In this document: positions 3,902-28,410 of the stretch, piece after piece
How the letters are laid out: each line of letters starts with the position of its first letter
Position numbering within the stretch: the first letter of the stretch is position 1
NCBI RefSeq assembly: GCF_002001125.1
Contig: NZ_MUNV01000005.1
Coordinates: forward strand, 248,001 to 312,000
Origin: Rhodanobacter sp. B04
GTDB lineage: Bacteria > Pseudomonadota > Gammaproteobacteria > Xanthomonadales > Rhodanobacteraceae
Direction: 5' to 3'
Length of the DNA: 64,000 nucleotides
The notes under the pieces: model-generated
Seen by the model: the letters and a program-made list of their open reading frames with translations, nothing else
The model's database searches: none
Told to the model about the DNA's origin: nothing
Position numbers and translations under genes: made by a program

Positions 3902-5242
<1,341 letters not shown>

Positions 5243-7377: not shown

Positions 7378-8634
7378 TTATACCGATCGCGTCGCCACCA
7401 CCGGCGGCACCGCCGCCGCGCGCAGTGCCGGGCCGAGCACGGCCAGCTGGCCAAGCAGCCACAACGCAAGTGCGCCGATCGGCAGGTAGTACAGCGGCAG
7501 CCGCGGCAGCTCATAGTGTTTCATCAGCACCAGATTCAACATGATCGCCAGCAGCAGGCCAAGCGCGATACCGCCACTGACAATCAGGAAGTTCTCGGTC
7601 TGGAAGTAACGCAGAATGTCGCCGCGGGAGGCACCGATCGCGCGGCGGATGCCGATGCTGCGGCGGCGCTGCTGCACCCAGAAATTGGCCAGTCCGGTGA
7701 TGCCCAGGGCAGTGACAAACAGCAGGCCGAGACCGGAGGCCAGCAGCAGGCCGATCATGGTGGTGTCGCGCTGGAAGTACGCCTCGCGCATCTGGGTGTA
7801 GGTACGCATACCGCCTGCTGGAATGATCCGTTCGGGACTGAGCTGTTCGAGCTTCGCCGCGGCCATCCGCAATACGCGTTCGCGATCCTGCGGCGCACTG
7901 CGCAGCAGGTATGTCACCTCGCCATCGTTCGGCAGCATGGGAAACAGCATGGCGTACTGGTTGACCCCCGCTTCGCGCAACTGCGGGCGCAACAGCGTAT
8001 CCACGATGCCGATGACGCGGATCGGCTTGCTTCCGCCGGTATAAATGCTCTGACCCAACGCGTTCTTGCCGGGATAGAGTCTTTCAGCAAGAGCGCGACT
8101 GAGGATGGCGACAGGCACGTCCGCGCCGGCCACGTGTTCATCCGCGCCGGCCACGTATTCATCCGTACGGAAGTCGCGCCCGGCAGCCAGATGCAGCCCA
8201 AGAACTCCAAGTTCACCGGGCGTCCCACCATAGACCGCCGGCTGAACGCACAAGCCGCCACGCATCATCGAATGGGCAGCGATGGCCGTGGCCATGTCTT
8301 CGGCACTGGCGCAGGTGCCGTAGGACGACTCATCCCGCCCCAGCGGCAGCGTATCGACCGCCACCGCAGCCGTGACACCGGGTATCTTGCTCAGTCCTGC
8401 CAGGTCGGCAGCATGGCGCGCCCGCTTGTTTTCATGCTTGTCGATGGTTTCGCTGACCAGCATCGACAGCCCGGCTTCATCGACGCCGCTGGGCAAGCTG
8501 ACCTGCTCCACCCGATTGACGATCATGAACACCACATTGCAGACGATCGCGCAGGTCAGCGCCACCTGCAGCATCAACAGCAGTGCGGTGAGCTTGTGAT
8601 GGCGCAGGCTGGAAAGAATCGGTCGCCATTGCAT
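7378..8634 (-). CDS. ABC permease, B type, class II (pair 8, last of the array)
   Basis: 418 aa, the longest B protein. The start at 8634 is preceded by GAGGAG. N-terminal helix about 20-42; periplasmic MacB-like domain; FtsX domain with three helices from about 290 to the end (GLLFVTALGITGLANFWVQQRRR is the conserved first helix and basic loop). C-terminus ALRAAAVPPVVATRSV is shared with pairs 4, 5 and 7. The periplasmic domain has an insertion carrying two cysteines (GTCASAED... and GGLCVQP), shared only with the pair-7 B protein. It also holds a small duplicated stretch, EYVAGADEHVAGAD. Predicted inner-membrane half-transporter, acting with the A protein encoded just upstream and the shared ATPase. 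Confidence 0.9.
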   Translation of the reverse strand: MQWRPILSSLRHHKLTALLLMLQVALTCAIVCNVVFMIVNRVEQVSLPSGVDEAGLSMLVSETIDKHENKRARHAADLAGLSKIPGVTAAVAVDTLPLGRDESSYGTCASAEDMATAIAAHSMMRGGLCVQPAVYGGTPGELGVLGLHLAAGRDFRTDEYVAGADEHVAGADVPVAILSRALAERLYPGKNALGQSIYTGGSKPIRVIGIVDTLLRPQLREAGVNQYAMLFPMLPNDGEVTYLLRSAPQDRERVLRMAAAKLEQLSPERIIPAGGMRTYTQMREAYFQRDTTMIGLLLASGLGLLFVTALGITGLANFWVQQRRRSIGIRRAIGASRGDILRYFQTENFLIVSGGIALGLLLAIMLNLVLMKHYELPRLPLYYLPIGALALWLLGQLAVLGPALRAAAVPPVVATRSV

Positions 8635-8642
8635 GTCGAAAC

Positions 8643-8669
8643 TCCTCACAACGTCAGTCCTCACAACGT
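8643..8669. repeat. 15-bp tandem duplication spanning a stop codon and ribosome site
   Basis: TCCTCACAACGT occurs twice with a 15-bp period at the junction of the pair-8 genes. It duplicates the last codons, the stop and the AGGA of the A gene. The effect is to widen the intra-pair gap to 26 bp, the largest among intact pairs. Confidence 0.8.
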
Positions 8670-9971
8670 CTTCAGCTGCAGCGCTGGAGCCACACGACAG
8701 GCACGCCAAGCCGGCAACAGACCGGCCAAGACGCTGGCAACCACGGCCAGCACGAACGTGCCGACCAGCATGGAGAAATCCATCTGCGCCAGATGGGCAT
8801 AGTCGTCGGGACGATGTCGCACACTCCACAGGCCCAGCTGCGCGATGCCCAGCCCCAGTACGCCGCCGGCCAACCCGATCACGGCCGACTCGATGCCGAA
8901 CTGCAGGAAGATGTCACGCCGCCGCGCGCCCAGCGCACGGCGCACGCTGACCTCGCCGCTGCGGCGCAGGAATTTGGCCAGCAGCAATGCCACGATGTTG
9001 GTCATGCACACCAGCAAAAACCCGAGCGCCAGCCACAATTGCAGACGCACGTCCGCAGACACCAGGTTCTGCCGGCCCAGCCAGTCCATCAACCCATACA
9101 GGCGAGCGTGGCTCGGTGGTCGCTCGAAGCGACCCAGCGCCTTCTGCTGTGCCGAGTAGTCGCTCAGGAACTGCCGGTATGCGGCAATCTGCGCCGGGTC
9201 CTTCAACTGCACCCATACCTGCAGCCAGGTCAGGTTCGGACTCTTCATGATGTCACCCTCGATCGACGCCCAGCTCGACTGGTTGCTATTGGCGTCGAAT
9301 TTGAGGTCCATTGCCGTGGCAAGCGGCAGGAAGAACTGGTCTGCCTCACCAAACGCCTTGGAGGAGGCATCTGCATAGAACATCGGTTGCGGATGCCAGT
9401 CGGCAGTGACGCCGATGACACGCAGATCGGCGTCGCCGAACCGCACCATGCGACCGACACTGTCGCTCGTACCGAACAACTTCCGGCTCAGCGTATCGCC
9501 CAGCACCACCACACGCGCCCGCCCGTCATCCTCAGCCGCCGACCAGCCCTGACCACGCAGGAACGGCACGCCGAACATCGCAAAAAAATCGGCGGTGGCA
9601 TAGCGTCCATCGACGTAGAACGGCCGCAGTCCCGTTCGTGCCGGTCGTACCAGCAGTGCCCCACCGGCCATTGCTGCTTGCCGCTCGGCGCGATGCGCCG
9701 CCACGAGTGCCATCGCATCGGGCCAGGTGAAATTCAGGCGCGGATCCGGACCGTATGCACTTTGCTGATACTTCAGCGGCAACGGGTCGAGCTGCGGGTA
9801 ATACAACTGGCCGCTGCGCCCCGGCAACGGGTCGCCCGACATCACATGCAACACGGTGACCATCGTCATGCTGGCGCCGATGCCCAGCCCGATCGCCAGC
9901 ACCATCAGCGCGGTCAGTACCGGATTGCGCTTCAGGCTGCGCAACGCCAGATCGAAGTAATAGCCAAACAT
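8661..9971 (-). CDS. ABC permease, A type, class II (pair 8)
   Basis: 436 aa from the ATG of MFGYYFDLALRSLKRN. Helix about 20-43 (LTALMVLAIGLGIGASMTMVTVL), large periplasmic domain, then three FtsX helices from about 315. C-terminus VAPALQLKTL is identical to that of the pair-5 A gene. It is the only A protein lacking the two periplasmic cysteines seen in the other seven: the positions read as serine and threonine in SNQSSWAS...SPNLTWLQVW. Joint loss is what one expects if they form a disulfide. The upstream gap is nearly identical to that before pair 7, pointing to a recent duplication. Confidence 0.9.
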   Translation of the reverse strand: MFGYYFDLALRSLKRNPVLTALMVLAIGLGIGASMTMVTVLHVMSGDPLPGRSGQLYYPQLDPLPLKYQQSAYGPDPRLNFTWPDAMALVAAHRAERQAAMAGGALLVRPARTGLRPFYVDGRYATADFFAMFGVPFLRGQGWSAAEDDGRARVVVLGDTLSRKLFGTSDSVGRMVRFGDADLRVIGVTADWHPQPMFYADASSKAFGEADQFFLPLATAMDLKFDANSNQSSWASIEGDIMKSPNLTWLQVWVQLKDPAQIAAYRQFLSDYSAQQKALGRFERPPSHARLYGLMDWLGRQNLVSADVRLQLWLALGFLLVCMTNIVALLLAKFLRRSGEVSVRRALGARRRDIFLQFGIESAVIGLAGGVLGLGIAQLGLWSVRHRPDDYAHLAQMDFSMLVGTFVLAVVASVLAGLLPAWRACRVAPALQLKTL

Positions 9972-10026
9972 TCCATGTACCCCTGCAACGATTGAAATCA
10001 CGAGGTGCCTTATCTGTTTTTTCCCA

Positions 10027-11256
10027 CTACACCGACCGCGTCGCCACCACCGGCGGCACCGCCGCCGCACGCAGTGCCGGGCCGAGCACAGCCAGCTGAC
10101 CAAGCAGCCATAGAACGATCGCGGCGATGGGCAGATAGGTCAGCGGCAGGCGTGGCAGCTCGTATTGCTTCATCAACAGCAGATTCAGCACCACGGCGAG
10201 CCCCAATCCAAGCACGATGCCAGCACTGACGATCAGAAAATTCTCGGTCTGGAAGTAACGGAGGATGTCGCCCCGGGTGGCACCGATCGCGCGGCGGATG
10301 CCGATCTGATGCGTGCGCTGCTGTACCCAGAAACTGGACAGCCCGATCACACCTAGCGCAGTAAGCGCCAGCAGGCTGCCGATCACCACCAGCAACAGCC
10401 AGATCAACGCGCGGTCGTCGTGGAAGTAGTCCGAGACGGTATCCGAGTAGCTGTGGTTTTCGGTGATGATGCGCTGTTCGTCCACGCCATCGAGTACCTT
10501 GGGCAGATTGCGCAACGTGGCGTCACGCACACCCGGCTGTGTGCGAAGCACGTACATGTTGCCCGTTGCCAACGTTACCGGAAGCAACATGTTGAGATCG
10601 GCGCCACTCTGCTTGTTGATGCTCGGGTTAAGCAAATGATCCGTCACACCCACGACATGGGTGACACCTGAATTCTTGTCACCCAGAAAAATGGGCTTGC
10701 CCAGCGGATCCTCTCCGGGCCACATTTTTTGCGCCAGCGATCGGGTGATGATCACCGATGGCGGGGGCGCCCTTTCGCCCTGGAACGGGTCGTAGTCCTG
10801 ATATTCCTGCGGCAGAAAATCACGCCCCTGCGACAGCCTGATCCCGAGCGTATTCACCACACCCGCGGTCCCGGCATAAATGACGACCGTGCAAACCGAT
10901 TCGGCATCTGCCCCGCCTGCCTTGCGCGCTATGCAGGTGCCCCACGAGCCGGTGGAGCTGAGCGGCAGCGAATTGGTGATGACCGCTGACTTCACCCCGG
11001 GCATGCCGCGCAGTGCGGCCAGATCGGCGGCGGCCCGACTGGCCTGGCTGGCTGACGTGCTGGCGTCACCAATGCCGCTGCTCTCGGCCCATACCAGCTC
11101 GTTGTCCGCCACCCCGGTTTGCATGCGCATGGTCGCCAGGTGGTTGCCGATGATGAAGATGCCATTACTGACGATCGCGCAGGTAAGCGCGATCTCAAGC
11201 ACCACCAGAATCACCACGGTCTTGTGGTGCTTCAGTGCGGAAATAATAGGATGCAT
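10027..11256 (-). CDS. ABC permease, B type, class II (pair 7)
   Basis: 409 aa, starting MHPIISALKHHKTVVILVVLEIALTCAIVSN, 13 bp after the A gene. Helix about 15-35; periplasmic domain; FtsX helices from about 280. It ends ALRAAAVPPVVATRSV, identical to pair 8. Two periplasmic cysteines (SWGTCIARK and ESVCTVV) are shared only with the pair-8 B protein, supporting a common recent origin for these two pairs. Confidence 0.9.
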   Translation of the reverse strand: MHPIISALKHHKTVVILVVLEIALTCAIVSNGIFIIGNHLATMRMQTGVADNELVWAESSGIGDASTSASQASRAAADLAALRGMPGVKSAVITNSLPLSSTGSWGTCIARKAGGADAESVCTVVIYAGTAGVVNTLGIRLSQGRDFLPQEYQDYDPFQGERAPPPSVIITRSLAQKMWPGEDPLGKPIFLGDKNSGVTHVVGVTDHLLNPSINKQSGADLNMLLPVTLATGNMYVLRTQPGVRDATLRNLPKVLDGVDEQRIITENHSYSDTVSDYFHDDRALIWLLLVVIGSLLALTALGVIGLSSFWVQQRTHQIGIRRAIGATRGDILRYFQTENFLIVSAGIVLGLGLAVVLNLLLMKQYELPRLPLTYLPIAAIVLWLLGQLAVLGPALRAAAVPPVVATRSV

Positions 11257-11269
11257 GACGTGCGTCTCC

Positions 11270-12577
11270 TCACTGGATCTTCAGGACACGAGCAGGCTGC
11301 ACGCGACACGCGCGCCAGGCGGGGAACATCGCCGCGAGTACGGTGGCGCACAGCGCGAGCACCAGCGTCGCGCCCAGCATCGCCATATCCAGGTGCGCAT
11401 ACGGCGCGTACTCCACCGGCTGATGACGAACGATCCACAAGCCGCCAAACGCCAGCAATAATCCTGCAATACCGCCTGCGATGCCGATCAAGGACGCCTC
11501 CGTCAGCAACTGCGCGAAGATCGACTGCTTCGACGCACCCATGGCACGCCGCACGCCCAGTTCGCTGCTGCGCCGCAGGAACTTCACCAGCAGCAACGCC
11601 ACCGTGTTGACCAGACAAACCAGCATAAAGCCCAGCGCCAGCAAGGCTTGCAGTTGCACGCTGCCCGGCACGACATGGTTGTAGTCCAGCCAGCCCATCA
11701 GGTCATGCAGCCGCGTATTCGGCGGCCGCTGGAAACGCCCCAGCATCTTCTGCTGCTCAGAGTAGTGCACCAGAAACTCGCGATACGCCTGCACCTGTGC
11801 CGGCGTATCCAGTTGCACCCAGAACTGCATCCATACGCAGTTAGCATTTTTCATGTTGCGCGGATCGGGAAAGCCACCGTGGCCCCAGCAACTCATGTTG
11901 CCGGAAGTACCCTGGCCGAGTGCCATCGCCGTTTCCAGCGGCAGAAACACATCCTCGGTCTTGTGGTAGCTACCTTGTGTCAAATCGTAGAAATGCGGCA
12001 CTGGATCCCAGTGATCGACCACACCTATGACGCGAAACACATCCTTGCCCAGCCGCAGCGACTGGCCCACCGCATGATCGGCGCCGAAGAGCTTGTCAGC
12101 CAGTGTGCGCGAGATTACCGCCACGCGCGCCTGCCTGTCGTCGTCATCGGCCGTCCAGCCGCCGCCGTACAGAAACGGAACGTCGAACATGCTGAAGAAA
12201 TCGGATGAGGTGTAACGCGCATCGGCGAAGAAGGCACGGCTTTCGCCCTGTGGTGGGCGCACCGTGACGCGCCCACCGGTCATCGCCACCTGATGACTAC
12301 CCTTGCGCGCATGCAGCAGGTTCATTGCATCGATCCATGAAAACTGATCCATCGGCTCCTTGCCCGGTGTGTAGCCTTCCATGTCTTGTGGATCGATCTG
12401 CGGATAGAACAACCGCGCACTCTTGTCCGGCAACGGATCGGCAGTCATCACGTGCAGTACCGTGATCATCGTCATGCTGGCGCCAATGCCCAGCCCGATC
12501 GCCAGCACCATCAGCGCCGTGAGCACCTTGTTGCGCTTCAGACTGCGCCATGCCAGATCGAAGTAATAGCCAAACAT
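11270..12577 (-). CDS. ABC permease, A type, class II (pair 7)
   Basis: 435 aa from the ATG of MFGYYFDLAWRSLKRNKVL; an in-frame GTG at 12607 would add 10 residues. Typical A layout. The periplasmic cysteine pair is present (MSCWGHGG...NANCVWMQFW) with a loop of about 17 residues between. The C-terminus VQPARVLKIQ departs from the QLKSN/QLKTL ending of the other A proteins. The AMGASKQSIFAQLLTEASLIG segment before the middle FtsX helix is well conserved with the other A genes. Confidence 0.9.
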   Translation of the reverse strand: MFGYYFDLAWRSLKRNKVLTALMVLAIGLGIGASMTMITVLHVMTADPLPDKSARLFYPQIDPQDMEGYTPGKEPMDQFSWIDAMNLLHARKGSHQVAMTGGRVTVRPPQGESRAFFADARYTSSDFFSMFDVPFLYGGGWTADDDDRQARVAVISRTLADKLFGADHAVGQSLRLGKDVFRVIGVVDHWDPVPHFYDLTQGSYHKTEDVFLPLETAMALGQGTSGNMSCWGHGGFPDPRNMKNANCVWMQFWVQLDTPAQVQAYREFLVHYSEQQKMLGRFQRPPNTRLHDLMGWLDYNHVVPGSVQLQALLALGFMLVCLVNTVALLLVKFLRRSSELGVRRAMGASKQSIFAQLLTEASLIGIAGGIAGLLLAFGGLWIVRHQPVEYAPYAHLDMAMLGATLVLALCATVLAAMFPAWRACRVQPARVLKIQ

Positions 12578-12633
12578 TCCATGTACCCCGTCAATCGTTG
12601 AAATCACGTGGTGCTTTTATCCATTCCCGATCA

Positions 12634-13872
12634 TCAAGCCGCCCTCGTCGCCACCACCGGCGGCACCAGGGACGCACGGCGCGCCGGTACGAACACCGCG
12701 ACCTGTCCGATCGCCAGCATCGCGAGTACGCCGGTCACCATGTATGTCACGGGCAGGCGCGCCATCTCGTACTGAGTCATCAGCCACACGTTCAGACCTC
12801 GTGCCAGCATCGCGCCCACGACTACGCCGACACCGGCGATCAACAGGTTCTCGGCGTGGAAGTAATGCAGGATGTCGATGCGGCGGGCCCCCAGTGCGCG
12901 ACGAATGCCGATCTGGCGATGCCGCTGGCCGACCCAGAAGCTGGTCAGGCCGACAATGCCGGCGGCGGTGACGCCAAGAAGGATCAGGCAGATGAGGCCC
13001 ATCAACAACGCCATGCCACGATCGGCGCGATAAGCCTTGTCGCGAATTTCCGTCAGGGACTGAATGCCCCAGCTATCCGGCATCACGCGCATCCGGTTGG
13101 CGGCAAACAGTGCCTTGCGCGCCGCCTGCATCGCTGGCAGAAGCCGACCGGGTTTGGCGCGCACCACATAGTTGGCGTTGACGCCGTCGAGCCGGACCGG
13201 CGCCATCACCGACATGTAGACCCACGGCCGGGTCGAGGCATTGGCAACCTGCAGACGATCAACGATGCCAATGATCACGGTCGGCTTGCTGTCGAGGTAC
13301 ACCGTCTTGCCCAGCGCATCGCCGTGCGGATACAGCTTGTCCGCCAACGCCTGGCTGACGATGATCACCGGCGAGGGCACGGTGCTGTTGATGGTGTGGT
13401 GCAGTATCTCGCCGGCATTGAAATCACGACCGGCGACCAGGCGCGCGCCGAGGGTCGAACGCATGTGTTCGTCGCCGTAGTACAAGCCCGCGGCGCTGGT
13501 CGGCGTCTTCTGATCCGCGGTAAGCGCGAGGCCACCCACCCAGATGCTTCCCTGCAGCGGCATGCCGTCGGAAGCGGCTACCGACTGCACATCCGGTAGC
13601 TGACGCAAGATGCCCAGATCGGCCAACTGCAGCGCGTCCAGCTTGTCGAGCGAGGCAGGATCATCCCCACTCGGTGCGCCCACGAAAGATTGCGAGACCC
13701 GGAACAAGTCGCGCTCGACCACGCCGGTCGGCCGCTGGATCACACTGATCCGCTGACTGATGATGAAGATCGCATTGCTGACAATCGCCAGGGTCAGCGC
13801 GATCTGCAGCACGATCAGCAACACGCCGGCCTTGTGCCATTTCAGCGCCGCGATGATGGGGTGCACGGTCAT
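12634..13872 (-). CDS. ABC permease, B type, class I (pair 6)
   Basis: 412 aa, starting MTVHPIIAALKWHKAGVLLIVLQIALTLAIVSN, 9 bp after the A gene. The class I B signature is LQIALTLAIV (class II has LEIALTCAIV), and the C-terminus is ARRASLVPPVVATRAA. The FtsX basic loop VGQRHRQIGIRRALGARRIDILHYF is intact. It is the only class I pair lying among class II pairs, so the array order was shuffled or pairs inserted singly. Confidence 0.9.
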   Translation of the reverse strand: MTVHPIIAALKWHKAGVLLIVLQIALTLAIVSNAIFIISQRISVIQRPTGVVERDLFRVSQSFVGAPSGDDPASLDKLDALQLADLGILRQLPDVQSVAASDGMPLQGSIWVGGLALTADQKTPTSAAGLYYGDEHMRSTLGARLVAGRDFNAGEILHHTINSTVPSPVIIVSQALADKLYPHGDALGKTVYLDSKPTVIIGIVDRLQVANASTRPWVYMSVMAPVRLDGVNANYVVRAKPGRLLPAMQAARKALFAANRMRVMPDSWGIQSLTEIRDKAYRADRGMALLMGLICLILLGVTAAGIVGLTSFWVGQRHRQIGIRRALGARRIDILHYFHAENLLIAGVGVVVGAMLARGLNVWLMTQYEMARLPVTYMVTGVLAMLAIGQVAVFVPARRASLVPPVVATRAA

Positions 13873-13881
13873 GGCAACGCC

Positions 13882-15198
13882 TCAGTTCGACTTCAGTTGC
13901 CACGCGGGTTGTACCCGCGAGGCCCGGAACGTGGGATACAGCCCCGCCAGCAGGGTCGCCAGGATCGCCACCAGCATGGTCAGCGCCAGCAAGGAGAGGT
14001 CGATGTGCGCCAGATCGGCAATGCGCTTGGGCAACACCAGGCCGACGCCAGCCACACCCACGCCGGTCAGCAGCAAGCCCAGCACGCCACCGGCGGCACC
14101 GACCACACCTGCCTCGCAGAGGAATTGTTGATAGATCGCCGCACGCGGCGCACCCAAGGCACGACGCACACCGATCTCGCCGCTGCGACGCAGGAACTTG
14201 GCCAGCAGCAGGCCCACCGTGTTGATCAGGCAGACGATCAGCAGGCCCAGCGCCACCAGCAGCGAGACCTTGGTATCGCGCGGTACGACATGCTCGAACG
14301 TCAGGAAGGCCGGCAGGTCGCGCAGCCGGTTGTTCGGCGTCCACGCAAAGCGTCCGGCATGCTGCTGCTCGGCGGCATAGCCATCCAGAAACTGCCGGTA
14401 GCCGGTCACCGCCGCCGCATCATCCAACTCGACCATGAGGGCGATCCAGATGCAGCTGGACTGTTGCAGGCCAACGAAGCCTTCGGCAGCCGGCATCACG
14501 GAGCAGTTGGTGCTGCCGTCGTTCGGCATGCCGACCGCGATCGCCCGGTCGAACGGCAAGAAGACATCGGGACCGTCGCCACTGAAGCCGCCGGTGTCGC
14601 GTACATCGAAGAAGATCGGCTGCGGATTCCAGTCCGCCAGCACCCCGACCACGCGGTAGTCCCGGCCTTCGATGTCGATCGTCTTGCCGACGCTGTTGCC
14701 GTCACCGAATGCCTGCTGACTCAACGTATGGCTGATCACCGCCACGGCCGCCCGGCTGGCATCGTCGGCGGCACTCCAGCCGCTGCCATACAGGAACGGC
14801 ACGTCGAGCATGGGAAAGAATTCGTTGTAGACGCCATAGCCCGACACATTCAGCGGAAACGCCCCCGTGGCCGCCGGCACCACCGACGGCGACACTGCGT
14901 AGATCGCCGATTGCCGGCTGGCCCGATGGGCCTTCATCAAGGCCATGGCGTCAGCGAAATCCAGCGCATCCGGTGGCTCACCGTCACTGCCCCGAGCGCT
15001 CGGCCCCCACATGTCGATCTGTGGCACGAACAACTTCGACGACTTCCACGGAATCGGATCACCCGATACCGCACGAAAGACCGACCACGTCGTCATCGAC
15101 GACGCCACGCCGAAGCCGATCGCCAGCACCATCAGCGCGGTGAGACCGGGACTGCGCCTCAGGCTGCGCAGAGCCAGTTCAAGGTAATAGCCGAACAT
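13882..15198 (-). CDS. ABC permease, A type, class I (pair 6)
   Basis: 438 aa, starting MFGYYLELALRSLRRSPGLTALMVLAIGFGVASSMTTWSVF. Class I features: RRSPGLTALM, GDPIPWKSSKLFVPQID, and the C-terminal VQPAWQLKSN. The periplasmic cysteine pair is present (STNCSVMPAAEG...QSSCIWIALM). At the point matching the stop in pair 2, this gene reads IEGRDYRVVGVLADWNPQP, giving the reference for that lesion. Confidence 0.9.
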   Translation of the reverse strand: MFGYYLELALRSLRRSPGLTALMVLAIGFGVASSMTTWSVFRAVSGDPIPWKSSKLFVPQIDMWGPSARGSDGEPPDALDFADAMALMKAHRASRQSAIYAVSPSVVPAATGAFPLNVSGYGVYNEFFPMLDVPFLYGSGWSAADDASRAAVAVISHTLSQQAFGDGNSVGKTIDIEGRDYRVVGVLADWNPQPIFFDVRDTGGFSGDGPDVFLPFDRAIAVGMPNDGSTNCSVMPAAEGFVGLQQSSCIWIALMVELDDAAAVTGYRQFLDGYAAEQQHAGRFAWTPNNRLRDLPAFLTFEHVVPRDTKVSLLVALGLLIVCLINTVGLLLAKFLRRSGEIGVRRALGAPRAAIYQQFLCEAGVVGAAGGVLGLLLTGVGVAGVGLVLPKRIADLAHIDLSLLALTMLVAILATLLAGLYPTFRASRVQPAWQLKSN

Positions 15199-15276
15199 GC
15201 CGCCCTCTCCCCTTTTGACTGGCGCCGGCCCTGCTCCCGGCGACCGAATGACATCCCATCGTGAAATTCCTTTTCA

Positions 15277-16491
15277 TCACACCGACCTCGTCGCCACCAC
15301 CGGTGGCACGGCCGCCGCGCGCAGCGCTGGGCCGAGCACGGCCAGCTGGCCGAGTCCCCACAGCACTAGCGCACCGATCGGCAGGTAATACAGCGGCAGC
15401 CGCGGCAATTCGTAATGCGTCATCAGCAGCAGGTTCAATGCAAACGCCAGCAGCATGCCCAGCACGATGCCGAACGAAACAATGAGGAAATTCTCGGTCT
15501 GGAAGTAGCGCAGGATGTCACCGCGCGTGGCACCGATCGCGCGGCGAATGCCGATCTGCCGGCGCCGCTGCGCCACCCAGAAGCTGGCCAGGCCAACGAT
15601 GCCCAGGGCAGTGACCAGCAGCATGGCGGTGATCACGCCGACCAGCATGCCCGCCATGGCGCGGTCGTTCTTGAAGACGTCGCGGCGCAGATCTGTCAGG
15701 GCATGACTGTTTTCCCGATCAATCACCACTTCCGGCACGGCTTTGGCAACGGCCGCGAGGGCATCGCGCAGCACGCGCGGCAAATCCCCGGAATTGGCCC
15801 GCAACAGGTAGCTGCCAGTCAGATACGGACCCGGCTGCGCGGGCAGGAATACTGACCACTGGCGCTGTTCTGGCGTCCATCCGGTCGGATCGGGCCGCAC
15901 CAGGTTCTTCAACACGCCGACAACGCGGTAGTGCGACTTCAGCATCCAGAACTCCTTGCCGAGCGGATCGGCGCCCGGCCACAAATGCTCGGCCAGAGCC
16001 TGCGTGATCTGGACGCTGCCCTCGTCAGGCATGAAGCTGGTGAACGCATGAAAGTCATCGGTCTGCGGTGCGCGTCCGGCAATGACCTTGGTGCCGAGCG
16101 TCTGCAGGCTGCCCGGACCACCCACGTAGAATTCGATCACGCCACCAAAATGCTGGCCGGCCGCATCGGTCGAGATCCCGGCGGTACCGCGGCGGCTGCC
16201 AAATGGGATGGAATTGAGTAACGACACCGACTCCACGCCGGGAACGGCGCGCAAGGCAGCGAGCGCCCGTGCATCCACGTCGGCCGCTTGCGCGGAGTCG
16301 TAGCCGGTCAGTTGCACCGATGCGAGCGCAGCTTCATCCACTCCGCTGACAATCTGCATGGCCGTGATGCGCTGGGAAATGATGAAACACGCATTGCACA
16401 GCACCGCGCAGGCCAGCGCGATTTCCAGCGCTATCAGGATCGTGGACAGACGATGCTTGCGCAGCGCGGAAAGAATGGGCCTGATCTGCAT
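15277..16491 (-). CDS. ABC permease, B type, class II (pair 5)
   Basis: 404 aa from ATG 16491 (GAGGAA about 8 bases upstream); the frame is open further upstream but that stretch overlaps the A gene. Starts MQIRPILSALRKHRLSTILIALEIALACAV and ends ALRAAAVPPVVATRSV. No periplasmic cysteine insertion. It lies 11 bp after a frameshifted A gene, so its cognate partner may be absent while this gene stays intact. Confidence 0.9.
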   Translation of the reverse strand: MQIRPILSALRKHRLSTILIALEIALACAVLCNACFIISQRITAMQIVSGVDEAALASVQLTGYDSAQAADVDARALAALRAVPGVESVSLLNSIPFGSRRGTAGISTDAAGQHFGGVIEFYVGGPGSLQTLGTKVIAGRAPQTDDFHAFTSFMPDEGSVQITQALAEHLWPGADPLGKEFWMLKSHYRVVGVLKNLVRPDPTGWTPEQRQWSVFLPAQPGPYLTGSYLLRANSGDLPRVLRDALAAVAKAVPEVVIDRENSHALTDLRRDVFKNDRAMAGMLVGVITAMLLVTALGIVGLASFWVAQRRRQIGIRRAIGATRGDILRYFQTENFLIVSFGIVLGMLLAFALNLLLMTHYELPRLPLYYLPIGALVLWGLGQLAVLGPALRAAAVPPVVATRSV

Positions 16492-16502
16492 CGTTCCGTT
16501 CC

Positions 16503-17821: not shown

Positions 17822-17849
17822 CACATCACTCCATCATGTCGTTCTTTGT

Positions 17850-17910
17850 GGGAGCGCACCCGGCCCGGCGCATTGGCCTGCGCGTGGCCATCGCGCAAGG
17901 GTGCGCTCCC
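17850..17910. repeat. Inverted repeat GGGAGCGCACCC in an inter-pair gap
   Basis: Twelve-base arms, GGGAGCGCACCC and GGGTGCGCTCCC, lie 37 bases apart in the 96-bp gap between pair 4 and pair 5. It is a REP-like palindromic element of the same style as those at 5373 and 60751. Its insertion explains why this gap is the widest in the array. Confidence 0.75.
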
Positions 17911-17917
17911 GCGGACA

Positions 17918-19150: not shown

Positions 19151-19157
19151 GCTCACC

Positions 19158-20465: not shown

Positions 20466-20520
20466 CTTCAGTTGCTCCGTTGCGTTCATGCACCCCATCT
20501 CCCGGGGCAAGGCAAAGCCG

Positions 20521-21765
20521 TCAAACCGCCCGCGTCGCCACCACCGGCGGCACTTTGGAAGCGCGCCGCGCCGGCACGAACACCGATGCCTGTCCGATCG
20601 CCAGCATCACCAGCACGCCGGCAAACACATACGGTGGTGGAATGCGCGGCATCTCGTAGTGCGCCATCAGCCACAGGTTGAGAGCCACCGCGAGCAGCAC
20701 GCCCAGCACCGCGCCGATGCCGGCGATAAATAGGTTCTCTGTCTGGAAATGACGCAGGATGTCGAGCCGTCGCGCTCCCAGCGCGCGACGGATGCCGATC
20801 TGCCGCCGTCGCTGGCCGACCCAGAAGCTGGTCAACCCGACGATCCCGGCGGCGGTGACCATCAGCAGGATCAGGCAGACGATGCCCAGCACGATCACGG
20901 TGCCACGATCTCCGCGGTAGGCCTTGAAGCGGATCTCGCGCATCGTTTGCAGGCCCCAGGTGTCCGGCATGTCGCGCAGCGGGTCGATCGCGAACAGCGC
21001 ATCTCGCGCAGCGCGCATCACGGCTTGCTCGCGCCCGGGCCGCACGCGAAGCGCGTAGCTGGCTGAGGCGCCATCGAGACGTACCGGCATCAGGATCGAA
21101 TCGTAGGCCCAGTCGCGCCCCCATTCGGCCAGGGTGGGCGTCTGCAGCAGCGCTACGATGCCGATGATGGTGATGGGGTGCCGGTTGACGTAGATCGTCT
21201 TGCCCAGCGCGCCGCCTGCCGGAAACAACTGGTCGGCCACCGCGCGACTGACGATACAGACCGCGGGTGTCTGGACACTGCGCAGCATGTGGTGGTCGAT
21301 TTCTTCCGGGTTGAAATTGCGCCCGGCCACCAGCCGCAGGCCCAGCGTCGGCAGCATATGGTCGTCGCCGTAATACAGCGCGGCCTGGCCCATTGCCCGC
21401 TTCTGGTTGGCGTCGCGCCGTAGGTCGCCGCTCCAGATCGCTCCCTGCAACGGCATGCTGTCGCTGGCCGCCACGTCGATCACCCCGGGCAGGCGACGCA
21501 GGGCTTCGAGGTCGGCGCGCTGCATGGCGTCGAGCTTGTCCACGCCGGCGGGCGTGCCGGCATCGGGTGCGTCCAGCCAGGTCTGCGAAATGCGGATCAG
21601 CCCTTGCTCTTGCACGCCGCTCGGGCGCCGCATCCGTTCGATGCGCTGGCCGACGATGAATAGCGCGTTGCACACGATGGCCAGCGTCAGGGCGATCTGC
21701 ACGACGATCAGCACGATGCCGGCCATGTGCCGTTTCCAGGTCCGGAAAATGGGATGCATGGTCAT
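20521..21765 (-). CDS. ABC permease, B type, class I (pair 3)
   Basis: 414 aa from the ATG of MTMHPIFRTWKRHMAGIVLIVVQIALTLAIVCN, 5 bp after the A gene, the tightest pair in the array. C-terminus ARRASKVPPVVATRAV. Periplasmic domain and three FtsX helices as in the other B proteins, with the basic loop VGQRRRQIGIRRALGARRLDILRHFQTEN. Confidence 0.9.
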   Translation of the reverse strand: MTMHPIFRTWKRHMAGIVLIVVQIALTLAIVCNALFIVGQRIERMRRPSGVQEQGLIRISQTWLDAPDAGTPAGVDKLDAMQRADLEALRRLPGVIDVAASDSMPLQGAIWSGDLRRDANQKRAMGQAALYYGDDHMLPTLGLRLVAGRNFNPEEIDHHMLRSVQTPAVCIVSRAVADQLFPAGGALGKTIYVNRHPITIIGIVALLQTPTLAEWGRDWAYDSILMPVRLDGASASYALRVRPGREQAVMRAARDALFAIDPLRDMPDTWGLQTMREIRFKAYRGDRGTVIVLGIVCLILLMVTAAGIVGLTSFWVGQRRRQIGIRRALGARRLDILRHFQTENLFIAGIGAVLGVLLAVALNLWLMAHYEMPRIPPPYVFAGVLVMLAIGQASVFVPARRASKVPPVVATRAV

Positions 21766-21770
21766 GGCGG

Positions 21771-23090
21771 TCAGTCCGACTTGAGTTGCCAGGCAGGCTG
21801 CACCCTTGCCGCGCGGAACGACGGGTACAGGCCGGCCAACACCGTGCAAAGCACGGCCACCACCACAGTGGTCACCAGCAGGCGCACGTCCAGCGTGGCA
21901 AGCGCGGCAAGACGAGGCTGCAGCACTGCGCCGATGCCCAGCACACCCAGGCCTGTCAGCAACAAGCCAAGCGCGCCGCCGGCCAGGCCCACTATGGCCG
22001 CTTCGGTAAGGAACTGGGCGTAGATCGCGCCGCGCCCGGCGCCCAGCGCGCGGCGCACGCCGATCTCACCGCTGCGTCGGAGAAACTTGGCCAGCAGCAG
22101 CCCAACCGTGTTGAACAAGCAGACGACCAGCAGGCCGACAGCCACCAGAAACGATACGCGCGTGTCGCCAGGCACCACCTGCTCGGCCGCCAGAAAGGCC
22201 GGAAGATCGCGCAGCCGGTTGTTTGGCGCGCCCAGGAAGCGGCCCGCGCGGCGTTGCATAGCCGCGTAATCGTCGAGGTATTGCCGGTAGGCGCGTACCC
22301 GGGCCGGCGTATCCAGCTCGGCAAGAAAAGTGATCCACACGCACTCGGAACGCTGCAACCCGGCGAAACCCGGCGAGGACGGTTCGGCGTCGCAGGCGGT
22401 ACGCCCGTTCTCGAGATCGCCCGCGATCGCTCGCGTGAAAGGCACGAACAGCGCGGGCCCTTCGCGGGTGTAACCGCCTGTGCCGAACACGTCGTAGTAC
22501 GCCGGCTGCGGATTCCAGTCGTCGATGACACCGACCACACGGTAATCATGGCCGGCAATGTCCAGGCTGCGCCCGACGCTGTTGGCGCCGCCAAAAGCCT
22601 TGTCGTTGAGCGCGCGGCTGATTACCACTACCGGCGCGGCGGCCGCGTCCTCTGCAGCGCTCCAGCCTTGCCCGTAGAGGAACGGCAAGTCGAGCATCGG
22701 GAAAAACTCTGCATAGACAGCGTAACCGCCCAAGGTGAGTGGATGCTGCCCGGCGCGCGCCGGAAACACCGCCGGCGCAATCTCGTAGATCGCTGACTGG
22801 CGCAACGCGCGATGATCGCGCATCAGCGCGAGCGCATCGGTATAGGTGAGCGCATCCGGTGGCTCGCCGTCGCCGCTGCGGGCCGAGCTGGACCAGATGT
22901 CCATCTGCGGCACGAACAGTTGCGACGACTTCCACGGAATCGGGTCGCCCGAGGCGGCCCGGAACACCGACCATGTCGTCATGCATGCCGACACACCAAA
23001 TCCGACGGCCAGCACCATCAGCGCCGTCAGGCCGGGACTTCGCTTCAGGCTGCGGAACGCCAGTTCGAGGTAATAGGCGAACAATTCCAT
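21771..23090 (-). CDS. ABC permease, A type, class I (pair 3)
   Basis: 439 aa from ATG 23090, but AAGGGG abuts that ATG. A TTG two codons on (23084), matching the M-F-A-Y-Y start of the other A genes, is an alternative with better ribosome-site spacing. Class I helix SPGLTALMVLAVGFGVSACMTTWSVF, with an extra cysteine in the helix. Periplasmic cysteine pair present (RTACDAEPSSPG...RSECVWITFL). C-terminus VQPAWQLKSD. Confidence 0.9.
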   Translation of the reverse strand: MELFAYYLELAFRSLKRSPGLTALMVLAVGFGVSACMTTWSVFRAASGDPIPWKSSQLFVPQMDIWSSSARSGDGEPPDALTYTDALALMRDHRALRQSAIYEIAPAVFPARAGQHPLTLGGYAVYAEFFPMLDLPFLYGQGWSAAEDAAAAPVVVISRALNDKAFGGANSVGRSLDIAGHDYRVVGVIDDWNPQPAYYDVFGTGGYTREGPALFVPFTRAIAGDLENGRTACDAEPSSPGFAGLQRSECVWITFLAELDTPARVRAYRQYLDDYAAMQRRAGRFLGAPNNRLRDLPAFLAAEQVVPGDTRVSFLVAVGLLVVCLFNTVGLLLAKFLRRSGEIGVRRALGAGRGAIYAQFLTEAAIVGLAGGALGLLLTGLGVLGIGAVLQPRLAALATLDVRLLVTTVVVAVLCTVLAGLYPSFRAARVQPAWQLKSD

Positions 23091-23103
23091 CCCCTTGGTT
23101 GTC

Positions 23104-23141
23104 CTCCCCTCCCCTCCCCTGCACGCAGGGAAGGGGAGGAA
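23104..23141. repeat. C-rich hairpin between pairs 2 and 3
   Basis: A run of CCTCCCCT-type units is followed by a CACG loop and a near-perfect G-rich complement (one mismatch over 14 bp). It occupies most of the 54-bp gap between pairs 2 and 3. It could pause polymerase or protect mRNA ends. There is no U tract, so it is not a standard terminator. Confidence 0.6.
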
Positions 23142-23144
23142 ACA

Positions 23145-24404
23145 TCACACTGCCCGCGTCGCCGTCACCGGCGGCACATTCGACGCACGCCGCGCCGGCA
23201 CGAACACCGCGAGCTGCCCGAGCACGAGCATCGCCAGCACACCCGTCATCACGTACGGCAGCGGGATGCGCGTCATCTCGTAGTGCGTCATCAGCCAGGT
23301 GTTGAGGCCCACCGCCAGCAGCACGCCCAGCACCACGCCCGCGCCGGCAATCAGCAGGTTCTCGATCTGGAAGTAATGCAGGATGTCGACCTTGCGGGCG
23401 CCGAGCGCGCGGCGTACGCCGATCTGCCGATGCCGCTGGCCGACCCAGAAACTGGTGAGGCCGACGATGCCCGCCGCCGTGACGCAGAGCAGGATCAGGC
23501 AGACCACGCCCATCAGGATCGCCATGCCGACGTCGGCGCGATAGGCACTGGCACGGATGTCGGCGAACGACTTGACGCTTTCATCGTCGTCCAGCACGCG
23601 CATCGGATTGACCGCATACAGCGCCGCGGGTACGGCGCGCATCGCTGCATCTCGCCGGCCCGGTTTGGCGCGTACCACATAGCGTGCATAGCTCGAATCC
23701 AGCCGGGTCGGCACCAGGGTCGAGTACCAGGTAAAGGCATTGCCCCAGCTTCCGGTGCTTGGAATCTGCAGGCGTTCGACCACGCCTATGATGGTGCTCG
23801 GCGCAGTGCTGCCATCCGAATAAATCACCTTGCCGACCGCATTGCCCTGCGGGAACAGCTTGTCGGCCAGCGCCTTGGTCACGATCACGACCGGACGGTC
23901 ACGCTGGTCGCGTGCACCCTGATGCTGCACATCGCCGGCATTGAAAGCGCGGCCCGTCACCAGGTGCAAACCCAGCGTGGTCAGTGCCTGCTCGTCGGTA
24001 AAGTAGTACGCCGTGCGCGTGCCACCTTTGCTGCCCAACTGGGCTCCGGGCTTGAGCGACAGCGAGCCGGTCCATGAGGAATTGAGCAGGGGCACGGAAT
24101 TGCTTGGCGCCACCGAGGCCACGTCGGGCAGGTTGCGCAGCGCGGCCAGATCTTCCCGCTGCATCACGTCGAGTTTTTCCACCCCGGCCGGGTCGTCTCC
24201 GCTGGGCGCACCCACCCATTGCTGGGTGACCAGGAAAAGATCGTTCTCGTCCAGTCCGGTGGGCCGGTTCACCCGCTCGACACGCTGGCCGATGATGAAC
24301 ACCGCATTGCAGACGATCGCCAGGGTCAGCGCGATCTGCAATGAGATCAATACCACGCCGGCCTTGTGTTTGCGCAATGCCGCAAGAATGGGATGCATTG
24401 TCAT
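23145..24404 (-). CDS. ABC permease, B type, class I (pair 2)
   Basis: 419 aa from ATG 24404 (AGGA about 8 bases upstream). Starts MTMHPILAALRKHKAGVVLISLQIALTLAIVCN and ends ARRASNVPPVTATRAV. It is separated from its A gene by 87 bp, against 5-26 bp in every other pair, and that A gene carries an internal stop. The pair has thus diverged both in spacing and integrity, though this B gene is intact. Confidence 0.9.
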   Translation of the reverse strand: MTMHPILAALRKHKAGVVLISLQIALTLAIVCNAVFIIGQRVERVNRPTGLDENDLFLVTQQWVGAPSGDDPAGVEKLDVMQREDLAALRNLPDVASVAPSNSVPLLNSSWTGSLSLKPGAQLGSKGGTRTAYYFTDEQALTTLGLHLVTGRAFNAGDVQHQGARDQRDRPVVIVTKALADKLFPQGNAVGKVIYSDGSTAPSTIIGVVERLQIPSTGSWGNAFTWYSTLVPTRLDSSYARYVVRAKPGRRDAAMRAVPAALYAVNPMRVLDDDESVKSFADIRASAYRADVGMAILMGVVCLILLCVTAAGIVGLTSFWVGQRHRQIGVRRALGARKVDILHYFQIENLLIAGAGVVLGVLLAVGLNTWLMTHYEMTRIPLPYVMTGVLAMLVLGQLAVFVPARRASNVPPVTATRAV

Positions 24405-24491
24405 GAGGGTTTTCCTTTCGCTGCCCTATGAAACCGGCTTTTATTGGGAGTACGGCCACGGATGGCCGCTTTCGTGCGCATGCAGAACGTG

Positions 24492-25808
24492 TCAATTACT
24501 CTTGAGCTGCCACGCGGGTTGCACGCGTGAAGCACGGAAGGTGGGATAGAGTCCGGCCAGGGTGGTCGCGATGACGGCCACCAGCAGGGTCAACGCGAGC
24601 AGGGAGAAGTCGATCCGTGCCAGCGCGGCGATGTCCTTCGGCAACACCCAACTCACGCTGACCACGCCAACACCAGTCAACAGCAGACCCAGCACGCCAC
24701 CGGCCAGACCGATGATGCCGGCCTCGGTAAGGAACTGCGCATAGATCGCCAGGCGCGGCGCCCCCAGCGCACGCCGCACGCCGATCTCGCTGCTGCGGCG
24801 CAGGAATTTCGCCAGCAGCAGGCCTGCCGTGTTGACCAGGCAGGCGAGCAGCAGGCCGAGCGCGACCAGCAGCGACACCTTGGTATCGCTGGGCACCACG
24901 TGCTGGTTGTCCAGCCATGCCGGGAGGTCGCGCAGACGGTTGTTCGGCGCCCAGCCAAAGCGGCCTGACTGCTGCGCGTCGTGCGCATAGCCATCGAGAT
25001 ATTGCTTGTAGGCCGTTACTGCCGTTGCGTCGTCCAGCTCGGCCATGTAGGCGATCCACACGCAGGCCGAATGCTGCAGGCCGACGAAACCCGATTCGGT
25101 CGGCACCGCGTTGCAATTGGTGTTGCCGTCGTTCGGCAAGCCCACGGCGATGGCCCGCTGGAACGGCAGGAACACGTCCTCGACACCGGTGGAGAAGCCG
25201 CCGCTGTTGACCACATCGAAGAAGCGCGGCTGCGGGTTCCAGTCGTTCAACACACCCACCACGCGTTAGTCCTTGCCCTCGATGTTCACCGTCTTGCCCA
25301 CGCTGTTGTCGCCGCCGAACAGCTTCTGGTTGAGCTTGCTGCTGATCACCGCCACCGCGGCGCGTTGCGTGTCGTCGTCGGCGCTCCAGCCGCTGCCGTA
25401 CAGGAACGGCACGTCCAGCATCGGGAAGAACTCGCTATACACCGCGTGACCGCTGACGTTGATCGGGTGCTTGCTGGCATCCGCCGGCACGATCGACGGG
25501 GAGATCTGGTACATCGCCGACTGCAGCTTGGCGCGGTGATCGCGCATCAAGGTGATCGCGTCGTTGTAGTCCATCGCATTCGGCGGCTCGCCGTCGCTGC
25601 CGCGTCCGTTCGGGCCCCAGTTGTCGATCTGCGGCACGAACAGCTTCGACGACTTCCACGGAATCGGATCGCCGGACACCGCACGGAACACCGACCACGT
25701 GGTCATCGAGGCGGCCACGCCGAAGCCGATTGCCAGCACCATCAGTGCAGTGAGGCCGGGGCTGCGCCGGAGGCTGCGAACAGCCAGTTCAAGGTAATAA
25801 GCAAACAT
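24492..25808 (-). pseudogene. ABC permease, A type, class I (pair 2), interrupted by an in-frame TAA
   Basis: The frame is open over 439 codons except for one TAA at 25266-25268. Upstream: 180 codons from MFAYYLELAVRSLRRSPGL to VNIEGKD. Downstream, in the same frame: RVVGVLNDWNPQP to VQPAWQLKSN. The pair-6 A gene has IEGRDYRVVG at this point, so a tyrosine codon (TAC) became TAA by one substitution. The cysteine pair is retained (NTNCNAVP...HSACVWIAYM). The downstream part starts with a possible GTG (25262) but would lack the N-terminal helix. A recent nonsense mutation or a base error fits best, since the remainder shows no decay. Confidence 0.88.
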
Positions 25809-25859
25809 GTGTCCACCCTCCGTTGACCCCTTCCTGCACTCAGGCGGGGTGTAAAGTTT

Positions 25860-27092
25860 TCAAGTCGAACGCGTGGCTTCCACCGGCGAAACGCGCGAGG
25901 CACGCAAGGCCGGCCCCAGCACCGCACCCTGGCCTAGCAGCAGCAACACGATCACTCCGGCGCCGACATAGCCCATCGACAGCCGCGACATCTCGAACCG
26001 GGTCACCATCCACAGGTTGATGCCGACCGCCAGCACCGTGCCGGCGAGCACGCCGCCAACGCTGATCAGCAGGTTCTCGGTCAGGAAGTAATGGAGGATG
26101 TCGCTGCGCGTGGCACCCAGCGCGCGGCGCACGCCGATCTGCTTGCGGCGCTGGCCGACCCAGAAACTGGTGAGACCGACGATGCCCGCCGCCGTGATGG
26201 CCAGCAACACCACGCTGATGATGCCCATCAGGATCGCCATGCCGCGGTCGCTGTCGTAGGCACGCTGGCGTATCTGGGCGAAGCTCCCGCCATTCTTGGG
26301 ATCGAAGACGCGCATGCGGCTTTGCGCGTACAGCGCCTTGGGCACCTCGCGCATGGCATCGGCGAGCTGGCCCGGTTTGGAGCGCACGATGTAGTAGAGG
26401 CCATCGGTGTCTTCGCGTATCGGCCACAGCAGGGATTCGTACGCGTAGGGTTTGCTCCAGTTCGACACGTTTTGCCGCTGCAAGCGTTCGACGATGCCGA
26501 TGATGACGCTCGGCGTGGTGGTCATCGAGTAGATGGGCTTGCCCAGCGCCGAACCGTCCGGGTACACATGGTCGGCCAGCGCCTTGGTCACGATCACCAC
26601 GGGCGGGATCACCACCTGGCGCGATGCCATCTGCATGATTTCGGAGGCGTTGAAGTTGCGCCCGGCAATCAGCTTCACGCCCAGCGTATCGAGCATGTGC
26701 TCGTCGCCCATGTACACCGATGCGTCGGTGGTCGGCTTGAGCTGCTCGGGCGTGCGCATCACGAAGTTGTCCCAGTTGCCGCCACTGAGCGGATAGCCAT
26801 CGCTGGGCGAGGCATCGCGCACGCTGGGCAGCTGCCGCAAGGCAGCCAGGTCGGCCAGGATCTGCGCATCGACCTGTGCCGGCGACCAGTGACCCGCCCA
26901 CTGGTTGGCCACTACCAACAGGTTCGCTTCATCGATGCCGGTCGGCTCGGAGAGATGCGCCACCCGTTGCCGGATGATGAACAACGCATTGCAGACGATC
27001 GCCAGGGTCAGCGCGATCTGCAGGGCGATCAGCACGGTGCCGGCCTTGTGCTGGCGCAATGCGGCGAGGATGGGTTTGATCTGCATGCTCAT
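25860..27092 (-). CDS. ABC permease, B type, class I (pair 1)
   Basis: 410 aa from ATG 27092 (GAGG about 8 bases upstream), 10 bp after the A gene. Starts MSMQIKPILAALRQHKAGTVLIALQIALTLAIVCN. C-terminus ALRASRVSPVEATRST is the most divergent of the B set. The FtsX region LLAITAAGIVGLTSFWVGQRRKQIGVRRALGATRSDILHYF is intact. The long periplasmic domain differs strongly in sequence from the other B proteins, whereas the membrane ends are well conserved. Confidence 0.9.
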   Translation of the reverse strand: MSMQIKPILAALRQHKAGTVLIALQIALTLAIVCNALFIIRQRVAHLSEPTGIDEANLLVVANQWAGHWSPAQVDAQILADLAALRQLPSVRDASPSDGYPLSGGNWDNFVMRTPEQLKPTTDASVYMGDEHMLDTLGVKLIAGRNFNASEIMQMASRQVVIPPVVIVTKALADHVYPDGSALGKPIYSMTTTPSVIIGIVERLQRQNVSNWSKPYAYESLLWPIREDTDGLYYIVRSKPGQLADAMREVPKALYAQSRMRVFDPKNGGSFAQIRQRAYDSDRGMAILMGIISVVLLAITAAGIVGLTSFWVGQRRKQIGVRRALGATRSDILHYFLTENLLISVGGVLAGTVLAVGINLWMVTRFEMSRLSMGYVGAGVIVLLLLGQGAVLGPALRASRVSPVEATRST

Positions 27093-27102
27093 CGGCGTCG
27101 CC

Positions 27103-28410
27103 TCAATTGGCCTTGAGCTGCCAGGCCGGCTGTACCTGCGCCGCGCGCCAGGCCGGGTAGAACGCCGCCGCCATCGTGGCGAACACCGCAACCGTCAGGG
27201 TCAGCCCCACCAGCGAAAGGTCCAGGTGCGCCAGGCGTGCGATCTCCGGATTGAACAGCAGGCTTACTCCGCAAATGCCCACGGCCGTCAGCAGCAGGCC
27301 GAACACGCCGCCGGCCAGGCCCACCGTGGCTGCCTCGATCAGGTATTGCGCATAGATCTCCCGGCGCGAGGCACCCAGCGCACGGCGCACGCCGATCTCG
27401 CCGGCACGGCGCAGGAACTTGGCCAGCAGCAGGCCGATCGTGTTGATCAGGCAGATCGCGAAGAAGCCCAACGCCACGATCAGCGAGATGCGGCTCTCCG
27501 CCGGCACCACCTGCTGGTAGTCGAGCCACTGCGCCACATCGCGCAAGCGCACATTGGGGGCCCAGGCGAAGCGTCCGGCACGCTGCTGGTCGGCTGCGTA
27601 GTCCTCCAGGAAACGGCGATAGGCCGATACGTCCGACGCACTGTCCAGCTCCACCCACGGCGTGACCCACACGCAGTTGCTTTGCAACCAGTCGTTCCAG
27701 CCCGCAAAGTTCATATGTCCCCGGCAGCTGTTGCCGCTCGGGTTGACCTGCACATCCATCGCGCGGGTGAACGGCAGGTAGAAATCCGTGGGATCCTGGA
27801 AACCGCTGCCATTGAACAGCGCAAAAAAGCGCGGTTTGGGGTCCCAATGCCGGGCAACGCCGACGACGCGATAGTCATGTCCGTCCAGCGTGATTTCGCG
27901 GCCTACGCTATTGGCGCCGCCGAACAGCTTCTGGTTGAACTCCTCACTCAACACCACCACGGCCGCGCGGCTGTCGTCCTCCGCCGCGCCCCAACTCCTG
28001 CCGTAGAGGAACGGCACCTCGAACATCGGAAAGAAATCGCCGTATACCGCATAGCCATTCGCGGCGACCGGCAGGCTCTGGCTGCCTTCCGGCAGCACCG
28101 ACATGCTCACGCCATACAGGAACGTCTGCCGCGTAGCCCGATGCGCACGCATCAATGCCATGGCATCGATGTAATTCAACGCGTCGGCGGGCTCGCCCTT
28201 GCTGTTCTGCTGCGGTCCCCAGCCATCGATCTGCGGGATGTAAAGTCGTGCGGACTTGTCCGGTATCGGGTTGCCCGACACGGCACGAAACACCGAGTAC
28301 GTGATCATCGACGCCGCCACGCCAAAGCCGATCGCCATCACCATCAGCGCGGTGAGTGCCGGATTGCGCCTGAGGCTGCGCAGGCCGAGGTCAAAATAGT
28401 ACGCGAACAT
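27103..28410 (-). CDS. ABC permease, A type, class I (pair 1, first of the array)
   Basis: 435 aa, starting MFAYYFDLGLRSLRRNPALTALMVMAIGFGVAASMITYSVF, 63 bp after the TolC-type gene. It mixes class I features (GNPIPDKSARLYIPQIDGWGP, VQPAWQLKAN) with the RRN motif of class II. The periplasmic cysteine pair is present (GNSCRGHMNF...QSNCVWVTPW). It sits next to the outer membrane factor gene, so pair 1 may be the founding pair of the array. Confidence 0.9.
   Translation of the reverse strand: MFAYYFDLGLRSLRRNPALTALMVMAIGFGVAASMITYSVFRAVSGNPIPDKSARLYIPQIDGWGPQQNSKGEPADALNYIDAMALMRAHRATRQTFLYGVSMSVLPEGSQSLPVAANGYAVYGDFFPMFEVPFLYGRSWGAAEDDSRAAVVVLSEEFNQKLFGGANSVGREITLDGHDYRVVGVARHWDPKPRFFALFNGSGFQDPTDFYLPFTRAMDVQVNPSGNSCRGHMNFAGWNDWLQSNCVWVTPWVELDSASDVSAYRRFLEDYAADQQRAGRFAWAPNVRLRDVAQWLDYQQVVPAESRISLIVALGFFAICLINTIGLLLAKFLRRAGEIGVRRALGASRREIYAQYLIEAATVGLAGGVFGLLLTAVGICGVSLLFNPEIARLAHLDLSLVGLTLTVAVFATMAAAFYPAWRAAQVQPAWQLKAN

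Follow-up and report, generated by a model that had tools for sequence, protein, structure and literature searches.

We analysed a 64,000-nucleotide window of the soil bacterium Rhodanobacter sp. B04 (contig NZ_MUNV01000005.1, positions 248,001 to 312,000), taken from a 3.8 Mb assembly of 30 contigs that is 99.98% complete. On its minus strand, positions 7378-28410 hold sixteen FtsX/MacB_PCD permease genes, arranged as eight tandem B-A pairs 3' of the genes for a periplasmic adaptor, an ATP-binding cassette (ABC) ATPase, and a TolC-family channel. In transcription order, the locus comprises a sigma-54 promoter, the adaptor, the ATPase, TolC, the eight pairs (28410 to 7378), a DUF885 protein, an NtrC-type response regulator, and a histidine kinase (Table 1). 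The original prediction, made from this DNA by itself, had counted one adaptor, one ATPase, and one TolC beside sixteen permeases, and the profile matches confirmed that count. A strict A-B alternation had also been proposed; the alternation holds, but each pair consists of B and then A. The boundaries then given, 7378-28410, cover the permeases but leave out the core genes and the conserved regulators. The intergenic gaps were 7-26 nucleotides (nt) within pairs (93 in pair 2) and 51-96 nt between pairs. Fourteen of the 16 permease genes are intact in this assembly, and all eight A genes are open. The closest named loci of the adaptor are those of Rhodanobacter sp. C01, C03, and R. panaciterrae, with 91-95% identity.

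Table 1. Features of the permease array and its flanking genes in order of transcription. Pair types are clusters at about 64% identity; pLDDT, predicted local distance difference test.
Feature	Position	Strand	Remarks
Sigma-54 (-24/-12) promoter TGGCATACGGATTGCT	31968..31983	(-)	11/11 consensus positions; ~41 nt upstream of adaptor start codon
Periplasmic adaptor (HlyD/RND_mfp; DarC/MacA-like)	30652..31926	(-)	PF16576, TIGR01730
ABC ATPase (DarD/LolD/MacB-NBD type)	29865..30593	(-)	PF00005; NF038007 DarD best model
TolC-family outer-membrane channel	28474..29865	(-)	PF02321; TIGR01844 over cut-off
B1 permease, type D	27103..28410	(-)	model pLDDT 85; MacB best fold match
A1 permease, type D	25860..27086	(-)	model pLDDT 90; MacB best fold match
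B2 permease, type A	24492..25808	(-)	in-frame TAA at codon 181
A2 permease, type A	23145..24398	(-)	
B3 permease, type W	21771..23090	(-)	type W found in this genome only
A3 permease, type W	20521..21759	(-)	
B4 permease, type B	19158..20465	(-)	
A4 permease, type B	17918..19150	(-)	
B5 permease, type C	16503..17821	(-)	frameshift inside N-terminal part
A5 permease, type C	15277..16491	(-)	
B6 permease, type G	13882..15198	(-)	
A6 permease, type G	12634..13872	(-)	
B7 permease, type K	11270..12577	(-)	
A7 permease, type K	10027..11256	(-)	
B8 permease, type H	8661..9971	(-)	
A8 permease, type H	7378..8634	(-)	
DUF885 protein, HEGxxGHH motif	5457..7295	(-)	PF05960
NtrC-type sigma-54 response regulator	3902..5257	(-)	PF00072+PF00158+PF02954
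Membrane sensor histidine kinase	2308..3744	(-)	HAMP, HATPase_c; partner of response regulator

The B and A proteins tested matched PF12704 (MacB_PCD) and PF02687 (FtsX) over cut-off. The AlphaFold models of B1 and A1 show a periplasmic domain, preceded by one long helix at the N-terminus and followed by three long ones at the C-terminus. In Foldseek, both models matched MacB best, followed by LolCDE and other type VII proteins, and YbbAP was also matched; the sequence profiles agreed with the fold, with MacB as the best PDB sequence match. The locus thus combines permeases that have a MacB_PCD core and an FtsX domain with a cognate adaptor and a TolC-family channel, as in MacAB-TolC-like (type VII) systems. 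It does not encode MacB proper with a fused ATPase, as the ATPase is separate and NF007826 scored far below its cut-off for all tested proteins. The ATPase has intact Walker A, signature, and Walker B motifs and is the operon's sole motor. It scored 258 bits against the DarD model NF038007, below the cut-off of 375; the best exporter-specific model of the adaptor was DarC (NF038010), with 79.7 bits against a cut-off of 450, and the NCBIfam models reported for the array permeases did not include a DarB permease. The ADOP family (model TIGR03434, 803 residues) has two permease domains in one polypeptide. In the array, two genes carry one half each, B aligning to the N-half and A to the C-half, and the single halves scored far below the fused-protein cut-off. 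ADOP genes are also described as not adjacent to an ABC ATPase, which is true for the dispersed pairs described below and false for the array.

In all twelve relatives whose loci were fetched around the adaptor, the layout was adaptor-ATPase-(TolC)-(B-A)n, with n = 4 to 8, and further genomes contained 12, 9, 7, 5, and 6 pairs. Arrays resembling that of strain B04 therefore exist in related genomes, with one ATPase each and n = 4 to 12. Other families of the order had one pair each in the same gene order, and TolC sits outside the operon in several relatives. Because the same layout recurs in twelve relatives and others, chance is ruled out. Among 200 genomes of the order, 106 carried the A-type permease, 108 the adaptor, and 105 both. 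The adaptor was single-copy in 104 of the 108 adaptor-bearing genomes, and permease counts reached at least 9. Beyond the order, the class-wide search found the A-type permease in no more than three sampled genomes, with one copy each. The presence of a Rhodanobacteraceae-like adaptor (76% identity) on a contig labelled Candidatus Eremiobacteraeota (L067) probably reflects a binning error. As the adaptor, ATPase, and regulator stay single while the pair number varies, the B-A pair is the only multiplied component of the operon, and across Rhodanobacteraceae it is amplified up to 12 times.

The promoter motif TGGCA(C/T)-N5-TTGC(A/T) was present at 11 of 11 positions, with nearly constant spacing, in 85 of 92 homologous upstream regions; among random 220-nt stretches, 0.6% contained the full motif. 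In a further ten loci, most of them from other families, the best match covered 10-11 positions (seven loci) or 7-9 positions (three loci). RpoN is present in the genome, in which the response regulator is single-copy. An orthologue of this regulator (64-94% identity) lies 3' of the array or of the single pair in 33 fetched loci, and kinase orthologues adjoin it there. The NtrC-type response regulator is likely the activator of the operon. Sigma-54 control of COG0577 (FtsX-like) permeases is statistically enriched in gammaproteobacteria (PMC12316311). DUF885 is another frequent 3' neighbour, with an orthologue at the array end in L111, L117, L124, L172, L038, and L107.

The pairs are inherited as units and differ from one another. 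The A and B trees mirror each other with a distance correlation of r 0.85, whereas shuffling partners within genomes gave 0.03 on average and at most 0.15. By pair type, the array of this genome reads D-A-W-B-C-G-K-H, and five extra pairs outside it (orphans) are of types G, E, I, J, and V. Arrays are ordered strings of mostly non-repeated types, although a few genomes carry one type twice; most relatives have the common skeleton D-A-B-C, and the remainder differs. Most types recur as orthologues across species, once per genome, and orthologous pairs are under purifying selection (omega 0.05-0.4, mostly near 0.1). Within the array, identity to the first copy is 38-58%. Paralogues of a genome share 66-75% identity in the cytoplasmic coupling loop and 31-43% in the periplasmic domain, and orphans resemble array members in this respect. 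The cores of G008, G021, and G024 are 98-99% identical, yet these genomes have few orthologous pairs in common. Conversely, G008 pair 5 matches G020 pair 6 at 98% identity, and the synonymous difference between them is 0.11, versus 0.28 for the core. The few common pairs despite near-identical cores and the low divergence of the G008/G020 pair indicate that whole cassettes turn over and were probably exchanged between genomes; by these comparisons, pair types turn over faster than the core.

At E below 1e-20, the genome encodes 17 homologues of the operon ATPase. Each of the MacB/LolD/FtsE-type ATPases examined lies beside its own permease: in a two-permease cluster (C2), in a one-permease cluster and, separately, as FtsE/FtsX (C24), with a LolC/LolD-like pair and in another cluster (C25), in one cluster with its own permease (C27), and with a YbbAP-like pair (C11), where another adjoins a binding-protein-dependent (MetNI-like) permease. 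The five orphan pairs of this genome (L131-L135) have no ATPase within about 6-8 kb, and neither do twenty dispersed pairs in relatives. Pair types B, G, and J are array members in some genomes and orphans in others. In the trees, orphan G017 L146 is the sister of a G003 array pair, and orphan L131 nests in an array clade. That array pair types also exist alone is the best comparative argument for an ATPase acting in trans. With one ATPase, several permease sets, and no dedicated ATPases among those examined, a single motor shared by all pairs is well supported by the genome comparison.

Two regulatory loci adjoin orphans. A second NtrC-type regulator (L132 6184-7575; orthologues L143, L147, L149, L151-L153, L156, L158, and L160) adjoins orphan type E in 10 of 10 genomes fetched; it was rejected as the array's regulator, being a different protein with about 34% identity. 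A BlaI-type repressor and a BlaR1/M56 peptidase gene (L134 4562-7562) lie directly upstream of orphan pair J and may be its separate regulator.

We consider it probable that the array encodes a modular tripartite exporter with one core and exchangeable B-A cassettes. In the MacB fold, ATP binding shifts the periplasmic domains and cargo is pushed into the adaptor-TolC duct, a mechanism termed mechanotransmission (PMC8277102). In the array, the sigma-54/NtrC-type two-component system would switch on the operon and thereby supply a set of B-A heterodimers together with a single membrane-fusion adaptor, LolD/MacB-type ATPase, and TolC. Each pair would assemble into a type VII heterodimer of MacB fold. 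Its cytoplasmic coupling loops, which are conserved, would hold two copies of the same ATPase, and its divergent periplasmic domains would bind cargo that differs from pair to pair. The ATP stroke would cross the membrane and push periplasmic cargo outward through the shared adaptor and TolC. Export specificity would be varied by gain, loss, movement, and exchange of whole B-A cassettes, with motor and duct kept constant. The original prediction of one motor with exchangeable permease modules is strongly supported by the amplification of B-A alone, by the ATPase-free dispersed pairs, and by the other ATPases being taken, while we infer the physical sharing of ATPase, adaptor, and TolC. Dedicated ATPases for individual pairs, which would contradict it, were not found among the MacB/LolD-type ATPases examined, and a distinct function for each pair gained indirect support from the non-redundant types and purifying selection. 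With somewhat less confidence, we favor a combinatorial exporter in which the sigma-54-controlled core serves a large, horizontally exchanged cassette library, both in the array and scattered (13 pairs here), and specificity evolves by cassette exchange alone.

Several findings weigh against these interpretations. An in-frame TAA interrupts B2 and a frameshift disrupts B5, so that two of the eight B genes are broken; the B2 orthologue is intact in the nearest relative, G017. In the arrays of G015 (L113) and G017 (L111), type A is represented by an A gene that lacks its B, and the last A of the G015 array is truncated. The broken B genes, lone A genes, and truncated A indicate that some modules are decaying or dispensable, and in G015 and G017 the lone and truncated A genes represent cassette decay in progress. 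Coupling-loop conservation is partly general to FtsX-family permeases, and a distant ATPase of another subfamily may serve the orphans. In addition, most orphan pairs lack a sigma-54 promoter. Such promoters were rejected as a feature of orphans, since they are absent save for one 10/11 match (G017 L146), and among 25, chance alone would give ~0.3 such matches. The orphans are therefore not obviously co-regulated with the core or part of one regulon with it.

Among the alternatives, the locus may encode a periplasm-to-surface trafficking or envelope-maintenance machine (LolCDE-/YbbAP-like) in which different pairs would deal with different lipids, lipoproteins, or peptides of endogenous origin. 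The fold matches include LolCDE and YbbAP, regulation through sigma-54 and a membrane kinase is consistent with envelope stress, and the frequent neighbour DUF885 is a putative peptidase by motif. However, an operon with an RND/HlyD-type adaptor and TolC indicates a duct across the envelope, separate LolC/LolD-like and YbbAP-like pairs exist in the genome, and the rapid pair turnover is unlike housekeeping trafficking, which makes this explanation unlikely. It is more doubtful still that some or all pairs use other ATPases, or act ATP-free as signalling or receptor proteins. The orphans do lie far from any ATPase, mostly without the operon's promoter, and the genome has other ABC ATPases at 32-48% identity; but the MacB/LolD-type ATPases examined each adjoin their own permease, the coupling loops are no less conserved in orphans than in array members, and throughout the order the presence and absence of the pairs coincide with those of the core. 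Least probable is redundancy, with all pairs being copies of one exporter that pump the same substrate and are retained for gene dosage, because dosage copies would be near-identical rather than diverged to the degree seen within the array, and because most types recur as orthologues across species, once per genome, and each is under purifying selection, even though one pair suffices in single-pair relatives, the array is retained despite two broken B genes, and a few genomes have two copies of one type.

The component types of the proposed modular exporter are already known (MacAB-TolC, DarBCD-like, ADOP-like), and a literature search found no description of such permease arrays. The array shares with MacAB-TolC the MacB_PCD+FtsX fold, a MacA-like adaptor, and TolC, but it has a separate ATPase, a B-A pair instead of one MacB, and many pairs per motor. 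Its adaptor and ATPase scored best against DarC and DarD of the darobactin exporter DarBCD among the exporter-specific models, although below both curated cut-offs, and its permeases stand in tandem. As in ADOP proteins, B and A match the N- and C-halves and the orphan pairs lack an ATPase; in contrast, the array permeases are split in two genes and linked to adaptor, ATPase, and TolC. LolCDE likewise combines two different MacB-fold permeases with one LolD-type ATPase, but it has no adaptor or TolC, one permease pair, and a lipoprotein substrate. In group II energy-coupling factor (ECF) transporters, one energising component serves many substrate-specific membrane components. MsmX is a multitask ATPase of type I importers (PMC7658222). 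The array would resemble both in its one energising component, whereas those systems are importers with unrelated membrane domains, and sharing in the MacB-type exporter is inferred from the genomes. In Anabaena, the TolC protein HgdD is common to at least seven DevBCA exporters (PMC8277102), so that one outer-membrane channel serves several MacB-like exporters; however, each DevBCA keeps its own adaptor and ATPase, and in the array both appear shared. What is new is the evidence for a single conserved core set against multiplied, dispersed, probably exchanged, and distinct cassettes, together with the sigma-54 switch.

If correct, a system with 8 to 13 pairs per ATPase and adaptor would be the exporter counterpart of ECF/MsmX-type shared-motor importers, and a cell would need nothing more than additional permease pairs to acquire further export specificities. 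Such a system would also offer an explanation of how ATPase-less orphan ADOP-type permeases could be powered, and a natural setting in which to test what part of a MacB-type pump determines specificity. As a genetic system, one motor with many removable modules and one regulator offers a route to the cargo of mechanotransmission exporters.

The remaining observations concern the surroundings of the array. The A4-B5 gap, 17822-17917 (-), contains an inverted repeat, GGGAGCGCACCC...GGGTGCGCTCCC, perhaps a repetitive extragenic palindromic (REP)-like element, and its left arm has a single perfect match in the window. The Rfam scan gave no match within the array; its sole match in the window was a flavin mononucleotide (FMN) riboswitch (RF00050, 81 bits) at 44477-44661 (-). 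Divergent from the operon, 32178-34100 (+) encodes a secreted-looking protein of 640 amino acids with a GDHGG motif recalling C13 peptidases and no Pfam or NCBIfam match; it was rejected as a functional partner of the operon, since it is conserved in the nearest relatives only. At the other end, an SPFH/band-7 (stomatin-like) gene at 1314-2258 (-) adjoins the kinase gene.

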